A DNA stretch of 57,277 bases from positions 1-57,277 of the forward strand of contig DATKMQ010000031.1 in assembly GCA_035541755.1 (NCBI GenBank), written 5' to 3'. The notes under the pieces are model-generated. The model worked only from the letters and a program-made list of their open reading frames with translations. It ran no database searches and was not told where the DNA came from. The DNA comes from Syntrophorhabdaceae bacterium (GTDB lineage: Bacteria > Desulfobacterota > Syntrophorhabdia > Syntrophorhabdales > Syntrophorhabdaceae). Below, in pieces: positions 36,112-44,754 of the stretch. The translations under genes and the position numbers were made by a program. The first letter of the stretch is position 1; every line of letters begins with the position of its first letter.

Positions 36112-36801
36112 TCAATCTTCGGTCTTGCCCACCAATCGATAGACAAGCGCCCCAAGGAGGCCGCCGATGATAGGAGCGACCCAGAAAAGCCATAACTGAG
36201 ACAGGGCCGGCGCGCCGACGTATAACGCTACCCCTGTGCTCCTTGCGGGGTTGACCGAGGTGTTAGTCACAGGAATGCTGATGAGGTGGATCAGGGTAAG
36301 GCCCAAACCTATTGCGATGGGAGCAAACCCTTGAGGCGCCCGTTTGTCGGTGGAACCGAGAATGATGACGAGAAACATCATGGTCATAATGATCTCGGTA
36401 ACCAGGGCAGCGAGTAGAGAATAGCCTCCGGGGGAACGGACCCCGTAGCCGTTTGAGGCGAAACCCGCAGATACATCAAAGCCGGCCTTGCCGCTGGCTA
36501 TGACATAGAGCACGCCACCCGCTACAATAGCGCCCAGCACCTGGGCGACGATATAGGGCAGGACTTCGCTTCCCGGAAAACGGCCGCCGGCCCAAAGCCC
36601 CACGGAGACTGCCGGATTCAGGTGACAGCCGGATATGTGTCCGATGGCGTAGGCCATTGTCAATACAGTCAGACCAAAGGCCAGGGCAACGCCAAAAAGA
36701 CCGATGCCCACGTGAGGAAATGTAGCGGCCAGCACGGCACTGCCGCACCCGCCAAGCACAAGCCAGAAGGTCCCGAAAAACTCTGCGCCATATTTCTTCA
36801 T
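36112..36801 (-). CDS. aqpZ: Aquaporin Z-type water channel
   Basis: This 229-aa MIP-family channel has six transmembrane helices and both NPA motifs ([10 protein letters not shown] and [11 protein letters not shown]). The residues around them are of the narrow, water-selective type ([11 protein letters not shown], small residues before the second NPA). The start at 36801 is used because AAGGAGG is directly upstream and it gives the standard [15 protein letters not shown] opening; an upstream frame to 36933 has no support. It probably moves water, possibly other small solutes, across the inner membrane. Confidence 0.95.
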
Positions 36802-37201: not shown

Positions 37202-39058
37202 ATGGGAACCGGATCTATTCGCTTTGTTCTGACGAGGACCGCCGCACTATGCATGTGTATTGCCTGCTTTCTGTCTGTTGCGGGGGTAACGCACGCCGCG
37301 GTTACGCTTGCGGTACTCAATCCCCAGGGAGAAATAGCCCCACCGCCCGTCTTCGTGCCTACGGCCCGTGTGGCAAGCCTTGACGGCAAGAAAATAGGCA
37401 TCTACTGGAACGGCAAACAAGGCGGAGAGAACTTTTGGGACGTGGTGGAAGAACAACTCAAGACCAGGTATCCTTCGGCTGAGGTTATACGATACAAAGG
37501 CCCTTTTGACCTCGGGCAAGCCATGGCGGAAAAGATCGCCAAGGAGTGCGACGTCTTCATGTACGGCGTGGGTGACTGAGGCTCCTGCAGCTGGGCCGGC
37601 GTGTCCGGTGCCATCAGGTTAGAGAAGCTTGGAAAACCGGTTGTCTATATCGTAGCAGACAATTTTTCCCATGATGCCGAACTATCCGCTGAAGATAATG
37701 GAATGCCCACACTTCGAAGGGTGGCGGTGCCGGGAGAAGAATTCTTTCAGCGGCGGATAAGCCGTGATCAGATAAAGCCTGTCGCAAATAGCGCGGTACA
37801 GGTCCTCATCGCGGGCTTGACCCGTCCGCTCACCAGAGAGGAACTGAATCCCAAACCAAAAAAGACCGCCATGGACAGGATAATCAAGATCACGGCGGAA
37901 AATTACGGAGCAGCCCTGGAGAAATTCAACGCCCTCTTCCTGGCCAATCATTGGGGCAGCGGGCTTCCGCTTATCCCGCCGACGCCAGAGCGGGTCAAAT
38001 GGATGCTCTCCGGTACAAGCCGGTCTAAAGACGAGGTGGTCGGCATCGTCGCTCCGAAGAACGGTAAAGCGACCGTAGAGAAGATCGCAATCAACGCAGT
38101 AATGGCTGGGGCCAAACCCGAGTATCTGCCCGTGATCATAGCGGCTATGGAAGGTTTTACCGCCAAAGATTACGACCTTGTGCACGTGCTCACCTCCTCG
38201 GGCTCCTTTTTTCCTGCCGTCATCGTACACGGGCCCATAGCTAAAGAGATCGGCATGAATTCAGGAACCGGCCTCATTGGCCACGGATTCAGGGCAAACA
38301 ACACCATCGGTCATGCCCTTCGTTTGAGTCTTTTAAATATCGGTCATCTCTGGCCCGGGGAGAACGATATGGCGCTCATAGGGCGCGTTTCCTCCCACAC
38401 ATTTTTCACCTTTGCCGAAAATGAACAGTTCAGTCCCTGGGAACCCTACCATGTGAGCATCGGTTTCAAGAAGGACGAGAGCGCGGTCACCGTTTCGACC
38501 GTGGGCGGATACACGGCAACAACCGGTATGACCGTGTACGGAGGAGGAGCTGTGGCGGTCTGGAGCGCCGATTCAATCCTCGATGCGATCGTCGCCGATA
38601 TAAGCCACGATCGGCGCATATTCACCCTGTTCAAGCGAGGGCAGGCAATACCGTCCGCGCACCCGTCCAAACACATCCTGGTGCTTGCGCCTGAGTTTGC
38701 CAGAGAACTGAACAGAAGAGGTTACACCAGGGCAAGTCTGCAGAAATATCTCTACGAAAAAACGAGCATACCGTTCGAAGAGTTGACCGCACAGGAAGTA
38801 AAGGCGGTTAGGGACAGGATCGAAGGCAGCAAGGCCCGCGACATGCTGCACTACGATATTATGCCTACTGACAGGATACCTGCCTATGAAGAAGTATTGA
38901 AGCCTGGCGGAAAGGTTCCGGTCGTTATCGCCCCCAGGGATATCACAATCCTTGTATCGGGCGGCATACCGGCTTATACGTTCGGCATGTCCTATTTCAG
39001 GGTTTCGCAGGAGACGAAACTCGTGCACGGCGCCACACTCACGAAAAGCGGGCGTTGA
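37202..39058 (+). CDS. Exported UGSC-family selenoprotein
   Basis: Two open frames, 37202-37579 and 37601-39058, lie in the same frame and are joined by one TGA at 37577-37579. Reading it as selenocysteine gives a 618-aa protein with Sec at residue 126 in the motif D-U-G-S-C-S-W, the signature of the UGSC (seleno)protein family. A signal peptide (about residues 1-32, ending THA) sends it to the periplasm. The first 190 residues form the UGSC domain. The remaining 430, with NHWGSGLPLIPPTPERV and SGTGLIGHGFRANNTIGHA, form a second conserved domain of unknown function. A SECIS-like hairpin follows the UGA. The ribosome-binding site is AGGAGGAAACC. It is the first gene of an exported redox operon. 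Confidence 0.9.
37580..37618 (+). promoter_or_regulatory. SECIS-like element of the UGSC gene
   Basis: A hairpin pairs CCTG (37584-37587) with CAGG (37615-37618) and, after internal loops, CCGG (37596-37599) with CCGG (37605-37608). The apical loop CGTGT is about 20 nt past the UGA and has G in its second position. This fits the bacterial SECIS layout read by SelB. Confidence 0.6.
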
Positions 39059-39157
39059 CGACTTATGGGACTCAGGTCCCGCTCCAAGGTATTGAGGGAA
39101 TCCGGTGGCGGCCACTCTTGTCTTAGGCTGCTGCCTTGTGAAGAGGAGGGATACAGG

Positions 39158-39580
39158 GTGTTATCACTAAAAAAGCTCGCATTCATTCTGGTTGTCATGA
39201 TAGCTATGACGCCTTACGCAGCTAGGATATGTAAAGCAAGCCACGAAGAGATTCCGCGCATTACCATCGAGGAACTTAAACGCCTTATCGACTCCGGAAC
39301 TGACGTGGTGATAATTGATGCCCAGGTAAAGAGTCTCTACAATAGAGGGCATATCAGGAAGGCGATAAATCTTCCCTGGAAGACAAGAGTCACGCTCACC
39401 GACGTCGAGAATATTCCGCCGGACAAACTCGTCGTGGTCTATTGCGATTGCGGACCAGGCGAATCGGACAGTTCCGATATAGCCGCTCAGCTATCTTCCC
39501 TCGGATATTTCGACGTCAAGGTGTTGGCGGATCCCTCCATACGGGGCTGGATTGAGGCAGGTTATCCCGTAGAGAAATAG
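39158..39580 (+). CDS. Exported rhodanese-like sulfurtransferase
   Basis: This 140-aa protein starts at GTG 39158, preceded by GAGGAGGGA, and opens with a signal peptide (about residues 1-27). The longer frame to 39065 would bury that signal. The single rhodanese domain shows VVIIDAQVKSLYNRGHI with the N-terminal Asp, GHIRKAINLPW, and an active-site loop beginning at VVYCDCGPGES. The catalytic Cys is thus part of a CDC pair. It would carry or transfer sulfur (or selenium) in the periplasm. It ends 2 nt before the cytochrome gene, inside the selenoprotein operon. Confidence 0.88.
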   Translation: MLSLKKLAFILVVMIAMTPYAARICKASHEEIPRITIEELKRLIDSGTDVVIIDAQVKSLYNRGHIRKAINLPWKTRVTLTDVENIPPDKLVVVYCDCGPGESDSSDIAAQLSSLGYFDVKVLADPSIRGWIEAGYPVEK

Positions 39581-39582
39581 AA

Positions 39583-40068
39583 ATGCGCATGTTCTCCTAT
39601 CCCGCGGTTATGGCCTTGCTGATCTTCTGTTGTGTGCGTATCGGACAAGAAAGTCCCGCGTATGCCCAGGATGCCTCAGGAAATTACGTGGGCTTTAAGG
39701 CCTGTTCCTCATGCCATCAAACCCTCACAGAAGGCTGGCTCACCACAAGGCACGCCAGGACATTCGAGAGTCTCAAGAAATCCTCCCAGGAGAATCTGCC
39801 CGGGTGCGTGAAATGCCATGTAACGGGCTACGGGGAGGACGGCGGATTTATCGATTACGATCTCACCCCTGAGATGGCCGGTGTCCAATGCGAGCAGTGC
39901 CACGGCGCAGGGCGTAAACACGTCGAAACGGGCGGGGAAGTGGGGCTTCCGGTCCGCTCAATGGGACAAGCCGCTTGCAGAAGATGCCATACGCCTGGTC
40001 AGGATGCAAACTTCGACTACCAAAAAAAGGTCCGGTCTGTTCACGGGTCTCAAGTCCTGAATAAATGA
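39583..40068 (+). CDS. Periplasmic four-heme cytochrome c (c554-like)
   Basis: This 161-aa secreted protein has a signal peptide ending around PAYA (about residue 29). Four CxxCH heme sites follow: CSSCH, CVKCH, CEQCH and CRRCH. His residues that could serve as distal ligands are present (TTRHARTFESL, GRKHVETGG). The layout resembles the cytochrome c554/NapC-independent small multiheme group. It could deliver or accept electrons for the neighbouring selenoproteins; this is inference from position only. Confidence 0.9.
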   Translation: MRMFSYPAVMALLIFCCVRIGQESPAYAQDASGNYVGFKACSSCHQTLTEGWLTTRHARTFESLKKSSQENLPGCVKCHVTGYGEDGGFIDYDLTPEMAGVQCEQCHGAGRKHVETGGEVGLPVRSMGQAACRRCHTPGQDANFDYQKKVRSVHGSQVLNK

Positions 40069-40084
40069 CAGGGGAGAATACGAA

Positions 40085-40795
40085 ATGAAGAAGAAACAGA
40101 GAAGACTGGGTGCTATCTTTATGGGACTTCTTTTTCTTGCCTGCCTTACGGGGTCGGCTTACGGCGGCGCTGGAAGACTGAGCGCCGAGCCTCTCTCTCA
40201 CGACTTCGGTGTCATCGACGAAGGAGCTACGGCCCGCGTGTCGGTCACGCTCACAAACGTAGGAGATGCCGATCTCACCATAACGGAAGTGAGGACCAAC
40301 TGAGCGTGCACCGAGGGCGCGCTTGGTAAGCGCGTGTTGAAACCGAAAGAAACGACTGCCCTCATTATCACTTACGCCACATCGGGACTCCCGGGTCCCT
40401 TCAAAAAAACTATCGACATATCTACGGATGCCGATACCCAAGAAACTGAGATCGTAATGACGGGAGAGGTGCGAGAAGCCCCCAGTGCAAAGATTCAGGT
40501 GGATCCGCGGAGGATTGACATCACAGTCCCCCAGGGTACGGAGCAGAGACAGATAATTACCATAAGAAATACGGGAAACCTTCCGCTCGTCATCAAAAAG
40601 ATTTACTCGCAGGAAACCGGAAAAGTCTACTTAGAGCCGAGGCCGGAACTTGTGATCGAACCGGGTAAATCGGTCACGAGCGAAATAAACATCATCCGGC
40701 GAGTGCAAGGGATGTTCAGAGAAATGATCGTGGTCGAGACTAACGCACGAAATGCTTTAAACGGCCGATTCATGATCATGGCTACCGGGAAATAG
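40085..40795 (+). CDS. Exported DUF1573-domain selenoprotein (UxC motif)
   Basis: Two same-frame segments, 40085-40303 and 40304-40795, are split by TGA at 40301-40303. Readthrough gives 236 aa with Sec at residue 73. The N-terminal signal peptide ends near SAYG. The first domain is DUF1573, an ASH/PapD-like beta fold: HDFGVIDEGATARVSVTLTN, then VRTN-U-A-C-T, then LKPKETTALIITY. In the family this spot normally reads SCGCT, so Sec replaces the first Cys of the CxC. A second similar beta domain follows (about 135-236). A 7-bp perfect hairpin with a GGT loop begins 15 nt after the UGA. The ribosome-binding site is GGGGAG. It lies 16 nt after the cytochrome. Confidence 0.85.
40304..40338 (+). 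promoter_or_regulatory. SECIS-like element of the DUF1573 gene
   Basis: A perfect stem CGCGCTT (40318-40324) / AAGCGCG (40328-40334) closes the loop GGT (40325-40327). The loop starts about 21 nt after the UGA and its first two bases are G. Both values lie inside the accepted bacterial SECIS window (roughly 16-37 nt, G in the first two loop positions). Confidence 0.75.
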
Positions 40796-40810
40796 GAGAC
40801 ACCATAAGCT

Positions 40811-41992
40811 ATGAGAATCTCCTTTCGGCATATCACCCGCGCGCCGCGGGAACTCAGATTATTTATTGCCGCGATATTCGCCATGGGCATGGGCTCCAGC
40901 ATCTTCGATTCCATATTCAACAATTTTCTGGACCAGAGGTTCGCGCTCACAGGTTTTGGCCGCTCATTTCTTGAGTTCCCACGAGAGTTCCCCGGGTTCC
41001 TCACGGTCTTCGTGTCTGCCTCGCTCTGGTTTCTCTGTAGCCGTCGGCTCGGCGCTGTAACCATGCTTATGAGCGCCGCTGGCTCGCTGCTTATGGGTTT
41101 TGTTTCGCCTGTCTACGCGATCATGATAGCCTGGCTCTTCGTCTACAGCCTTGGACAGCACCTCTTCATACCCCTGTCCTCAACGATCGGCATGGACCTC
41201 GCCGGAGAAGGCCAGGCCGGCCGCCGTCTCGGACAATTGAACGCAGTAAGGAACCTCTCGGCCATTCTCGGGAGCGCCATTGTATATCTCGGATTCAGGC
41301 TTCTTCATTTCACCTTTCCCTGCACCTTTTTCTTTGCCGCCACGGCCTTCGGTCTCGCGGCCGTTTTCATGTTCTCCATGAAGCGAGACAAGACCCATAT
41401 GCCCGCTATGTACCTCAACCTTCACCGCGAATACCGCCTCTACTATGTGCTGGCCGTGCTCTATGGCTCCAGGAAACAACTGTTTTTGACTTTCGCCCCC
41501 TGGGTACTCGTCACGATCTTTCATCAGCCAACACAGAGCATAGCTACGCTTCTCACCATCGGAGGCGTCATCGGCGTGGTATTTCAACCGTTCTTAGGCA
41601 GGGCCGTAGACAACTTCGGGGAACGGCTCGTTCTTATATCGGAGGCAGTGCTGCTCGTGTTTGTCTGCCTCGGATACGGTTTCTCCAGGTCCTTTTTTGC
41701 GGAGAGGACGGCGTTTCTCGTCGCATGCGCATGTTTTCTTTTGGATCAGATGCTCATGTCCGTCAACATGGCCCGCTCTACCTATATGAAAAAGATCGCC
41801 CTTCATCCCGATCATCTTCAGCCGGCGCTCACGAGTTCCGTAACTATCGACCACATCTTTTCCATTACCGTGGCCATTCTGGGTGGGATAATCTGGAACG
41901 CCTTCGGATTCCAGTACGTCTTTCTTATGGGCGCAATCATTGCCCTCTGCAATCTCTTCGCGGCAGCAATGATAAGAATTCCTGAGCGGTGA
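40811..41992 (+). CDS. MFS family transporter
   Basis: This 393-aa integral membrane protein has about 12 hydrophobic segments of the major facilitator type. Typical signs are Gly/Phe-rich helices, a charged central loop near residues 195-210 (MKRDKTHMPAMYL) and the loop FLGRAVDNFGER between later helices, matching the MFS 2-3 loop pattern of the second half. The substrate is not evident. It follows the DUF1573 gene by 15 nt, so it belongs to the selenoprotein operon and may import or export the small molecule on which that system acts. Confidence 0.85.
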   Translation: MRISFRHITRAPRELRLFIAAIFAMGMGSSIFDSIFNNFLDQRFALTGFGRSFLEFPREFPGFLTVFVSASLWFLCSRRLGAVTMLMSAAGSLLMGFVSPVYAIMIAWLFVYSLGQHLFIPLSSTIGMDLAGEGQAGRRLGQLNAVRNLSAILGSAIVYLGFRLLHFTFPCTFFFAATAFGLAAVFMFSMKRDKTHMPAMYLNLHREYRLYYVLAVLYGSRKQLFLTFAPWVLVTIFHQPTQSIATLLTIGGVIGVVFQPFLGRAVDNFGERLVLISEAVLLVFVCLGYGFSRSFFAERTAFLVACACFLLDQMLMSVNMARSTYMKKIALHPDHLQPALTSSVTIDHIFSITVAILGGIIWNAFGFQYVFLMGAIIALCNLFAAAMIRIPER

Positions 41993-42031: not shown

Positions 42032-43639
42032 CTACTCGGACGAAGACGGCTTACCGTCGTCCCGGCGGGTAAAAAGCGAATAGTCGAGCGCCGGCCAGCA
42101 ATAATCAATGTCCTCTATTTCTGCAAGCTCCGCCTCCGAGAGTCTGCCCGCATCGCTTAATTTGCCTGCGGCCCAGATGAGTTTACGGAATCGCTGGTGG
42201 TGATGGTGGAAACGCTGGTTGGCATACTCCCTGGCCTGGGCGGTAAAGAGCAGGAATGGCCAGTCACTGCCCTGCATGAGGAGGAGCTCCCGGGCCATCT
42301 GTTTGAAGATGCGTTCTCCCCTCTGGTCTGTGGGTTTGGTTCCGGCAAAAACCTGTTCAGCCTCCAACACGCTCGCGTTGATGTAAGGCCAGATCCAGCC
42401 ATGCTCGGGGTTTTTCCAGACCGTGAAATCGGCGTTCAAACCCCAACTGCTCGGTTGCATGGCGATCGTGGAGAACTCCTGCCGGTGCCGATCGATATAG
42501 TCTCCCAGGCTCTGACTCACAACGTCAGGGGTATCCGCGAGCAGGCGATAGATAGTTTCCAACCAAGACACCCCTTCGTGCCACCAGTGACCGAAAAGTT
42601 CACAATCATAGGGGCAAACTACGATCGGTTCTGTCTTACAGGTCGTGGCCTCGCCCAAAAGACTTAAGACAAGGGACACAAAGTGGTGAGCGTGGTTTTT
42701 AGTCGAACGTGAGGCCGCCTCCGGGTCGTAGTATTCCTTGTCCGTTTGTCCCGTGACCCGCCAATAGCGCAATCCCGATTCGTGGTCCTTTCTGTGAAAC
42801 TCAAGATAGTTCCAATCGCCGGGATAACCTTCATCCGGGGACCAGACCTGCCTTCCTGTGGCCTCGTTCCGCCCGAATACGGCGCAGCCGGAGGCAAGTC
42901 CATAACCCTGATAAGTGGTAGGACCCGTGTCGTCATGCCGCCTCTGCACAAAGGAAGCGCCGGTGATACCCACCCCCTCCACAAAAAAATACTCGATGCC
43001 ATGATCCGCGAGCCACTCATCGAGGGCACGACGCATCCGTCCCTCTTTTTGAGACCACTCGGCAGGCCGATAGGCGCATTCCGGCAGCCAGAATCCGCGG
43101 GGACTACGGCCGAAGTATGTCTTGTAGGTTTCTACGCCCACTCGCACTTGCGCGAACACAGCGCTGTCGTGTTCGAGAAGAGGCAAGAATCCATGTGTCG
43201 CCGCCGATGTGAGCACCTCCACAGCGCCTTCATCTTGAAGCCACCTGAAAGTTCCCAGGATATCCTCGTGAAAATCGACCCTGTACGCATGATAATTGCG
43301 CTCGTAAAGATCGAACCAATAGTGAGAAATGGCCTGTCTCGTCTTGTCTTCACGGAAACGCTCCGCGTCCCGTCTCGCCCGCTCTATTTTGTCTTCCATG
43401 TAGGCGCGAAAACGTTCTTTCATGTAGACATCGGCAAGCTGTTCCATAAGCACGGGTACAAAGCCGACCATTATCCGGGGCTTGATACCGTCCAAATAAA
43501 GGGCTTTGAGCGCCCTGAGTAGAGGGATATACGTCTCGTTCATGGCTTCGAAAAGCCACTCTTCTCCCGCAGGCCACACCCCTGACTTACGGCAATAGGG
43601 AATGTGGCTATGGAGCATAAGCGCGAAAACACCTGGCAT
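42032..43639 (-). CDS. GH57 family 1,4-alpha-glucan branching enzyme-like protein
   Basis: This 535-aa protein has the GH57 branching-enzyme layout. FALMLHSHIPYCRKSG opens the barrel, the nucleophile Glu is in FWLPECAYRP (about residue 190), and the acid Asp is in CPYDCELFGHWWHEG (about residue 350). A C-terminal helical domain with SSWGLNADFTVWKNPEHGW and LLLMQGSDWPFLL completes it. It would introduce alpha-1,6 branches into glycogen. The start at 43639 has AAGGAG eight bases upstream; the GTG at 43648 lacks one. It converges with the selenoprotein operon. Confidence 0.92.
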   Translation of the reverse strand: MPGVFALMLHSHIPYCRKSGVWPAGEEWLFEAMNETYIPLLRALKALYLDGIKPRIMVGFVPVLMEQLADVYMKERFRAYMEDKIERARRDAERFREDKTRQAISHYWFDLYERNYHAYRVDFHEDILGTFRWLQDEGAVEVLTSAATHGFLPLLEHDSAVFAQVRVGVETYKTYFGRSPRGFWLPECAYRPAEWSQKEGRMRRALDEWLADHGIEYFFVEGVGITGASFVQRRHDDTGPTTYQGYGLASGCAVFGRNEATGRQVWSPDEGYPGDWNYLEFHRKDHESGLRYWRVTGQTDKEYYDPEAASRSTKNHAHHFVSLVLSLLGEATTCKTEPIVVCPYDCELFGHWWHEGVSWLETIYRLLADTPDVVSQSLGDYIDRHRQEFSTIAMQPSSWGLNADFTVWKNPEHGWIWPYINASVLEAEQVFAGTKPTDQRGERIFKQMARELLLMQGSDWPFLLFTAQAREYANQRFHHHHQRFRKLIWAAGKLSDAGRLSEAELAEIEDIDYCWPALDYSLFTRRDDGKPSSSE

Positions 43640-43939
43640 GTGCCTCACTCCTTGTCCTGGCCGTTACGCTCGCGGCCAGCATACCATTATAGCATCACGG
43701 GAAACCCTTGGCTACACTGATTCGCCACACATCCAAAGTTTTTTTAACTGATGGGGGTCGGCTGCCTGTCCGTGTGATGCCAATCACTTAGATATAGCCA
43801 GGAGTATGTTATACTCTCTTGTGCCAATGTTGTTATCTTGTTCCCCCCGTGGTTCCCGCGCTATCACACGCACGCTTATTGTCTGTTTGAGCCTCTTTCC
43901 TGGAGGCCACTAAAAATGGTATCGTGAAGGAGTGCTATC
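43640..43939. other. Intergenic stretch with a candidate promoter
   Basis: No gene is seen. An extended -10 (TG-T-TATACT, with TATACT at 43810-43815) points rightward to the protease remnant 125 nt on. The -35 region is poor. Confidence 0.4.
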
Positions 43940-44754
43940 ATGGCGGAGAGATTAGTGAGCAGGTTCATACGGACATTAGCCGCGATTGCGGCCATCCTAA
44001 TTTTCACGGGATCGTTGGCCAATTCTACGCCATTAGACGACATACGCGCCGCGATTGCGCATAAAAGGGCAAGATGGATTGCTGATGAAACATCGATTTC
44101 ACGATTATCGGACCACGAAAAAAGGCAGCGGCTGGGGCTCGTCAAGGAGGTAGCGACCGGCAACGAACCTGTACTTCAAGTCGCCGCGCCTCTCTCGACG
44201 CTTACGACACAGTTTGACTGGAGGCTAAACGGCCGCGTCACCGCGGTTAGAGACCAGGGGAGTTGCGGAAGCTGCAACGGAGGTTATATCAACCGGGCAG
44301 CGGACTATGTCCGCGATACGGGATTGCCCCCTGAGACCTACTTTCCCTACACCGCTTCATCGTCGGATGATGTGTGTGGCAATGCTACTCAAGGATGGCA
44401 GGGTAGCGTCAGAAAAATCATCTCCTGGTCATATGTCAACACCACGACCGTCTCAGTACAAGATCTCAAAAACGCACTGGCCACGTACGGGCCGCTCGTT
44501 ACAACCATGGACGTCTATTATGACTTCTTCTCATACATGAGCGGGGTCTATGAATATGTGAACGGCGCCTATCAGGGTGGTCATGCCATTCTTATCGTGG
44601 GGTACACAGTTGGGGGACCGGGTGGGGCGAGAGTGGATACTTCAACATCGCGTATTCCCAAACCGCATCTCCTGTCTATTTCGGCCAATGGACTATTGCC
44701 TATTATCCGTCGATTGTGTTTCCTGCGCCGCCCTCTGGCCTGCGCGTAAGGTAA
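43940..44754 (+). pseudogene. Broken papain-like (C1A) cysteine protease
   Basis: The N-terminus is a signal peptide and a short propeptide. The mature domain begins FDWRLNGRVTAVRDQGSCGSC, the usual papain opening with the catalytic Cys. It then jumps straight to NGGYINRAADYV, a block normally about 40 residues further on, so an in-frame segment is deleted. Later GGHAILIVGY (catalytic His) is followed by nonsense. The +1 shifted frame reads NSWGTGWGESGYFNIAYSQ, the normal next block, so a second deletion has joined GY to NSWG with a frameshift. The shifted frame ends at 44754, just at PPSGLRVR, the kind of sequence that starts an Fn3 domain. The unshifted frame stops at 44749. It is probably non-functional. 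Confidence 0.8.

Follow-up and report, generated by a model that had tools for sequence, protein, structure and literature searches.

What would two selenoproteins, both apparently exported, do together with a rhodanese and a multiheme cytochrome? This question is raised by a stretch of 57,277 nucleotides from a Syntrophorhabdaceae bacterium (GenBank assembly GCA_035541755.1, contig DATKMQ010000031.1), referred to here as the window, which is contig 31 of a 180-contig, 3.85-Mb genome (the source genome, G000 in locus labels). Between positions 37,202 and 41,992, five forward-strand genes encode a UGSC selenoprotein, a rhodanese, a tetraheme cytochrome c, a DUF1573 selenoprotein and a major facilitator superfamily (MFS) transporter, and an earlier note had read them as an exported selenium/sulfur redox operon. 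The gene group is real and consists mostly of known families that are newly connected. The finding of general use is that the UGSC domain is, on profile comparison, GrdB/PrdB-like.

Relationship of the UGSC Domain to GrdB and PrdB

The chief new result concerns the N-terminal domain of the UGSC protein, which, as judged from aligned sequences, is a remote homologue of the selenocysteine (Sec) domain of GrdB and PrdB. When residues 31-222 were compared with 15 GRDB (PF07355) proteins from relatives, hhalign returned a probability of 97.1 % (E 6.2e-11, score 80), with Sec aligned on Sec, U-x-x-C on U-x-x-C, and the downstream (I/L)EK-x-G-x-P in register. With ten motif columns masked, the probability was still 94.8 %, and 100 column-shuffled GRDB alignments scored at most 19.5 with probabilities of at most 0.8 %. 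Among eight control families, GrdE/PrdA reached 16.1 % and TrxR 2.7 %, while the other six (TRAP, TctC, ABC permease, SDR, ABC ATPase, and fumarase at 0.3 %) reached at most 2.0 %. PF07355 is matched directly neither by the window protein nor in the list of 10 families for the 26 UGSC members. PF09338 matched 1 of 26 members at E 0.085, and profile comparison gave this match no support.

An earlier paper proposes a thioredoxin (Trx)-like fold for the UGSC domain (PMC2398784). The AlphaFold2 model of the window protein (pLDDT 88.6, pTM 0.88) has an N-terminal alternating beta-alpha domain, and its residues 58-222 align with flavodoxin/Rossmann-like chains (VIA; best Z 10.7, rmsd 4.3, 131 aligned), no search having been aimed at Trx. 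The rows under the best one have close scores and come from mixed families, and the N-terminal domain dominates the list for the full model. Foldseek with the full model gave no sensible match (best E 9.8e-4, TM 0.16), and the UGSC alignment, searched against PDB sequences, returned chance matches only (best E 0.045). The aligned profiles favour the GrdB/PrdB relationship over the Trx-like proposal. No statement of this relationship, and no assigned chemistry for UGSC, was found in the literature searched, including PMC13188914, PMC2398784, PMC9312934 and PMC5877670; for the former, most subscription journals and bioRxiv preprints lay outside its coverage.

The window protein shares with GrdB/PrdB (PF07355) a homologous Sec domain, the UGxCT motif followed by (I/L)EK-x-G-x-P, and a place in multi-selenoprotein operons. 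It differs in its predicted export, in lacking a PF07355 match and a GrdE/PrdA partner, in an unrelated second domain, and in having a cytochrome and a rhodanese as neighbours rather than thioredoxin or PrdC. Within its own family it passes the PF24696 gathering score (105.7 against 25 bits) but misses the NCBIfam equivalog cut-off for UGSC_fam (NF041046; 87.9 against 125 bits), which another copy in the source genome, on contig 180, passes at 136.2 bits. Like the UGSC/Unknown_1 fusion described in the available part of PMC2398784, it has the Sec motif fused to a second conserved domain, which may or may not be Unknown_1; its flavodoxin/Rossmann-like model, its score below the NCBIfam cut-off and its distinct operon context set it apart from the described family.

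Evidence for Selenocysteine

That the operon holds two selenoproteins, as the earlier note had it, stands: judged by sequence, namely tRNA-Sec (76 bits) and SelB (378 bits) in the source genome, the UGSC alignment column and an RNA stem in the DUF1573 gene, each of the two in-frame TGAs is a genuine Sec codon. In the UGSC alignment the Sec column holds TGA in 17 of 26 homologues including the window protein (16/25 without it), and the remaining nine carry N, S, L, A, T, A, I, A and Q, with Cys in 0/9. Since Sec is never swapped for Cys, the site appears to be either selenium-reactive or lost, and this pattern suggests that UGSC requires selenium. In the DUF1573 proteins the TGA is present in 4/4 aligned sequences (window, L055, L069, L115), always in UACT. 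A putative selenocysteine insertion sequence (SECIS)-like stem begins 16 nt past the first TGA base in all four genes and is paired in 28/28 cells; 4/7 pairs are changed on both sides, giving a covariation of 0.714 that was matched by 0/500 shuffles, while slid versions were at most 57 % paired and the null maximum over 182 offsets was 0.75 paired.

RNA-level support for the UGSC site is weak. The 17 UGSC genes share no stem register (at best 0.62 paired, against a null maximum of 0.64), and neither Sec site folds significantly by itself (z 0.87 and -0.62). In 21 genes, windows downstream of Sec are on average more stable than those taken elsewhere in the gene (mean z -0.84, Wilcoxon p 1e-4).

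A Predicted Periplasmic Relay

The reading favoured here, tentatively and with a probability of roughly 0.45, is that the operon encodes an exported Grd/Prd-type Sec enzyme together with its own periplasmic electron supply, formed by the cytochrome, the Sec-containing DUF1573 protein and the CxC rhodanese. It starts from what was computed, namely domain homology, Sec sites, co-location and a cytochrome-DUF1573 fusion, and from these we infer a substrate class, an electron direction, a carrier order, an origin of electrons in quinol and a periplasmic location. In the periplasm, the C-terminal domain of the UGSC protein would bind and activate a small organic substrate, which the U126 selenolate would attack, with reductive cleavage of a C-N, C-S or similar bond. 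A selenenyl-sulfide between U126 and C129 (or a mixed selenide) would be re-reduced by the DUF1573 protein through its UxC motif, by the CxC rhodanese, or by both. These in turn would be reduced by the tetraheme cytochrome with electrons ultimately from the quinol pool, whereas for cytoplasmic UGSC paralogues NAD(P)H disulfide reductases would supply the electrons.

Rhodanese, cytochrome and DUF1573 genes accompany UGSC in the window and in only two other genomes, G045 and G019 (L069), where the order is rhodanese-cytochrome-DUF1573-UGSC, unlike that of the window. The association spans two UGSC lineages, because the G019 protein is ~29 % and the G045 protein 61 % identical to that of the window, and in G045 a single frame (L055:5575-6732) encodes cytochrome and DUF1573 selenoprotein together. 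The recurrence of this rhodanese type, the cytochrome and the Sec-containing DUF1573 protein with two divergent UGSC lineages, and the fusion, support the relay, including the earlier suggestion that two selenoproteins take part in periplasmic redox transfer. The position of the rhodanese beside UGSC (8/8 matches in 395 genomes, and L077), the Sec column without Cys, and the Pyr_redox_2 disulfide reductases at or near other UGSC genes also count in favour of this reading. Co-operonic Sec proteins sharing one pathway also have precedent, including grdA-grdB and prdB-prdC (PMC13188914, available text).

The partners belong near described families. UGSC_fam, rhodanese_LYCAU and OS_HP2 are NCBIfam families labelled as (seleno)proteins, and the window members fall near but below their cut-offs. 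The rhodanese resembles rhodanese_LYCAU (NF041203) in its signal-peptide-like start and in carrying CxC in the place of CxU, yet at 58.2 bits against a cut-off of 115 it forms a UGSC-linked side branch in which 9 of 10 aligned proteins have CxC and one (L090) has CxU. The DUF1573 protein shares Sec in UxC, the DUF1573 domain and a signal-peptide-like start with the OS_HP2/DUF1573 selenoproteins (PF07610, NF041425). It scores 53.5 against 100 bits for NF041425, and proteins of the window type also stand apart in sharing an operon, or a polypeptide, with a tetraheme cytochrome. The cytochrome matches only the C-terminal model positions 400-519 of UshA_like_PCGU (NF041198; 120 against 275 bits) and is not a full-length UshA-plus-cytochrome protein. 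On source-genome contigs 126, 20 and 167, additional rhodanese genes of LYCAU type carry an in-frame TGA, away from the listed UGSC genes, and a search of a plasmid collection gave distant rhodaneses only.

The rhodanese is central to the alternative that survives best, though we consider it unlikely: periplasmic sulfur or selenium handling, with the rhodanese as carrier of persulfide or perselenide, which the two Sec proteins would reduce or transfer. In its favour, the window rhodanese has eight matches in six of 395 genomes of the phylum at 1e-15 (window, G019, G288, G246, G000 contig 81, two in G397, and G077), and a UGSC-family gene adjoins the match in 8/8. A rhodanese-like protein and multiheme cytochromes, one of which is a selenoprotein, also share the Geobacter extHIJKLMNOPQS cluster, implicated in selenite/tellurite reduction (PMC5877670, available text). 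However, the accessible gene list of that cluster contains no UGSC or DUF1573 gene, the cluster has porin and bc-type parts, and its rhodanese differs in size, ExtH being a different protein of 49.0 kDa (PMC5877670). The UGSC protein, moreover, aligns with amino-acid reductases, and many UGSC paralogues have no rhodanese nearby. A classical rhodanese loop has a single Cys, whereas the loop here is CxC or CxU in 10/10 aligned proteins, and no positive evidence for a persulfide or selenide role emerged; such a role is possible. The earlier note's view of selenium/sulfur handling as the purpose of the operon is not supported, as UGSC groups with the glycine/proline reductase Sec domain and its paralogues lie near disulfide reductases and genes read as organic-acid importers.

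The UGSC Family and Its Second Domain

Few uncharacterised selenoprotein families are as abundant in aquatic metagenomes as UGSC, with 255 sequences in the GOS table (PMC2398784, available text). The source genome has ten homologues, six with TGA (contigs 31, 81, 100, 122, 129, 137 and 180; L001-L008, L062-L068), and among the matches listed G077, G237, G246 and G288 have eleven each, while G001, a genome of the same genus, has none at 1e-20. Several source-genome paralogues lie amid transport genes that look by eye like TRAP, TctC and dipeptide systems; Pyr_redox_2 disulfide reductases stand beside or near UGSC genes in L062, L063, L074, L078 and L119, while in L061 and L089 a DUF6282 protein does so. 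Such neighbours would fit a family whose members catabolise small organic compounds and whose cytoplasmic forms would take electrons from NAD(P)H. An elaborate locus, L089 (G397 contig 12, 7767-18001), holds two rhodaneses, several UGSC-domain or fusion genes, a DoxX-like protein (by eye), the DUF6282 protein and a stand-alone C-domain protein.

Catabolic-looking genes and importers beside the paralogues (by eye), and the ability of a cytochrome to pass electrons either way, would also fit the same relay running in the oxidative direction, with UGSC oxidising an organic substrate and electrons passing outward via DUF1573 and the cytochrome. This we regard as improbable: the known Grd/Prd relatives are reductases, Sec in UxxC favours reduction, and no dehydrogenase cofactor site was recognised.

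The second domain of the UGSC protein, which the relay would use for substrate binding, gives a good model when folded alone (pLDDT 90.4) and also exists as a separate protein: contig 180 of the source genome carries a UGSC frame of 187 aa with a separate C-domain frame after it, and split pairs likewise occur in L074 and L119. Across 30 C-domains, a PT pair, MAG, E and W are among the invariant residues. Apart from UGSC, each Pfam family matched among the 26 UGSC members is matched by just one of them, and none of these single matches covers the domain convincingly. Foldseek gave 0 matches at E<=1e-3; the nearest likeness, to class I fumarase, is weak (Foldseek E 0.02, probability 0.30; VIA best Z 4.6, rmsd 5.5, 191 aligned; sequence profile 0.1 %), and no new fold is claimed from the predicted model. 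In L072 (6985-8424, G054), a C-domain protein carries a CxxC-bearing N-terminal extension and is followed by a separate UGSC-domain match. A thioredoxin fusion was considered for this protein and rejected, as no Pfam match and no thioredoxin domain was found.

Conservation and Limits of the Association

Eight loci have a UGSC protein at least 42 % identical to that of the window (window, L055, L075, L056, L057, L058, L077 and L078; L057 and L058 end near the gene), and of these 2/8 have the trio of rhodanese, cytochrome and DUF1573 and 3/8 the rhodanese, which in L077, an Acidobacteria metagenome-assembled genome, lies 36 nt past UGSC. In G246 (L088:8260-9178) the UGSC gene by the rhodanese looks broken; it is open in a similar neighbourhood in G288 (L087). 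The second UGSC-rhodanese pair of the source genome, on contig 81, is followed by a 40-residue cytochrome remnant with one CxxCH and then a stop (L065:7905-8027), a possible sign of decay in this copy of the module. The earlier note had proposed homologous loci as a check, scattered genes counting against an operon, and on the counts for these eight loci the outcome is mixed. The MFS gene, which that note had included in the system, is not shared, with no tblastn match at 1e-4 in 24 loci.

Several observations weigh against the relay. Six of the eight close UGSC loci are without cytochrome and DUF1573, although two of the six are cut near the gene. The partner families are widespread, with rhodanese NF041203 in 121/297 genomes and DUF1573 NF041425 in 111/297 against 30/297 for UGSC, and the cytochrome query matches in 99/297. 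A cytochrome and Sec-DUF1573 pair occurs without UGSC or rhodanese at L115 (G091 contig 201, 7584-8785). The source genome has no GRDB (PF07355) or GrdE/PrdA (PF09338) match at E<=1e-10, and the C-domain profile matches neither GRDB (0.4 %) nor GrdE/PrdA (0.1 %). Finally, export and operon status are predicted, and the substrate of the UGSC enzyme is conjectural.

The L115 pair was seen near helix-hairpin proteins and an arylsulfotransferase-like protein (by eye). The LYCAU rhodanese and OS_HP2 families as a whole were considered as UGSC partners and rejected: among the rhodanese matches listed, those adjoining a UGSC gene are, by eye, only G000:C31, G000:C81, G288:C78 and G246:C102.

Chance or loose co-location, in which DUF1573 and the cytochrome form a general periplasmic redox or repair pair and only rhodanese and UGSC are functionally linked, would account for L115 and for the scarcity of the trio at close UGSC loci, but it is quite unlikely, as the trio recurs in different gene orders with UGSC lineages ~29 % identical. 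On gene-neighbourhood evidence, the linkage of the genes is beyond chance, but loose.

Layout of the Locus

The coordinates of the features are collected in Table 1. Five rightward genes with gaps of 99, 2, 16 and 15 nt, as first described, agree with the open reading frame coordinates, and hmmscan against Pfam returns the family labels given to all five. The genes on either side both point leftward, an aquaporin-family (MIP) gene at 36112-36801 and a GH57 gene at 42032-43648. The rhodanese start is GTG with GAGGAGG ahead, within a longer frame open from 39065. A single transcript is not proven, because a weak terminator-like match (39104-39116) lies in the 99-nt UGSC-rhodanese gap. The signal peptides attributed to the first four proteins are seen as basic/hydrophobic N-termini like those of Sec-pathway signals, judged by hydropathy only, and a periplasmic location is predicted for these proteins. 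A papain-family (C1) peptidase frame at 43940-44749, past the GH57 gene, shows no sign of an operon link, and a PHROGs search gave no match.

Table 1. Features of the UGSC operon, in window positions
Feature	Position (strand)	Details	Evidence
UGSC selenoprotein	37202..39058 (+)	618 aa, predicted exported; TGA stop included	PF24696, 105.7 bits, 3.7e-30
UGSC N-terminal domain	37292..37867 (+)	residues 31-222, GrdB-like Sec domain (remote homology)	hhalign to PF07355 members
UGSC Sec codon	37577..37579 (+)	TGA = U126, motif UGSC	in-frame, 17/26 aligned homologues
Candidate UGSC SECIS hairpin	37595..37609 (+)	CCGG-loop-CCGG, weak	by eye in close orthologues
UGSC C-terminal domain	37868..39055 (+)	residues 223-618, no confident family or fold	
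Rhodanese-domain protein	39158..39580 (+)	predicted exported; CxC loop YCDCGPGESDS	PF00581, 3.4e-12
Tetraheme cytochrome c	39583..40068 (+)	predicted exported; CxxCH at residues 41, 75, 103, 132	Cytochrome_C554 PF13435, 9.7e-20
DUF1573 selenoprotein	40085..40795 (+)	predicted exported; UACT motif	PF07610, 9.6e-28, 96.5 bits against 26.1 cut-off
DUF1573 Sec codon	40301..40303 (+)	TGA = U73	in-frame
Putative DUF1573 SECIS-like stem	40317..40335 (+)	7 bp, 5-nt loop	covariation over 4 homologues
MFS transporter	40811..41992 (+)	same direction, not conserved with the rest	MFS_1 PF07690, 3.2e-15

Implications

The placement with GrdB/PrdB gives the UGSC family its first testable reaction class. A further step, bolder and more doubtful than the relay itself, is that the system is a respiratory counterpart of glycine and proline reductase: a periplasmic GrdB-type enzyme with a new substrate domain would reduce an external organic compound with quinol electrons via the tetraheme cytochrome and the second selenoprotein, as one of a large and diversified family, with ten homologues in the source genome, acting on different organic acids. 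If the relay is true, it would show how a GrdB-type selenoenzyme can be moved outside the cell and wired to cytochromes, and anaerobic respiration would gain one more type of organic electron acceptor.

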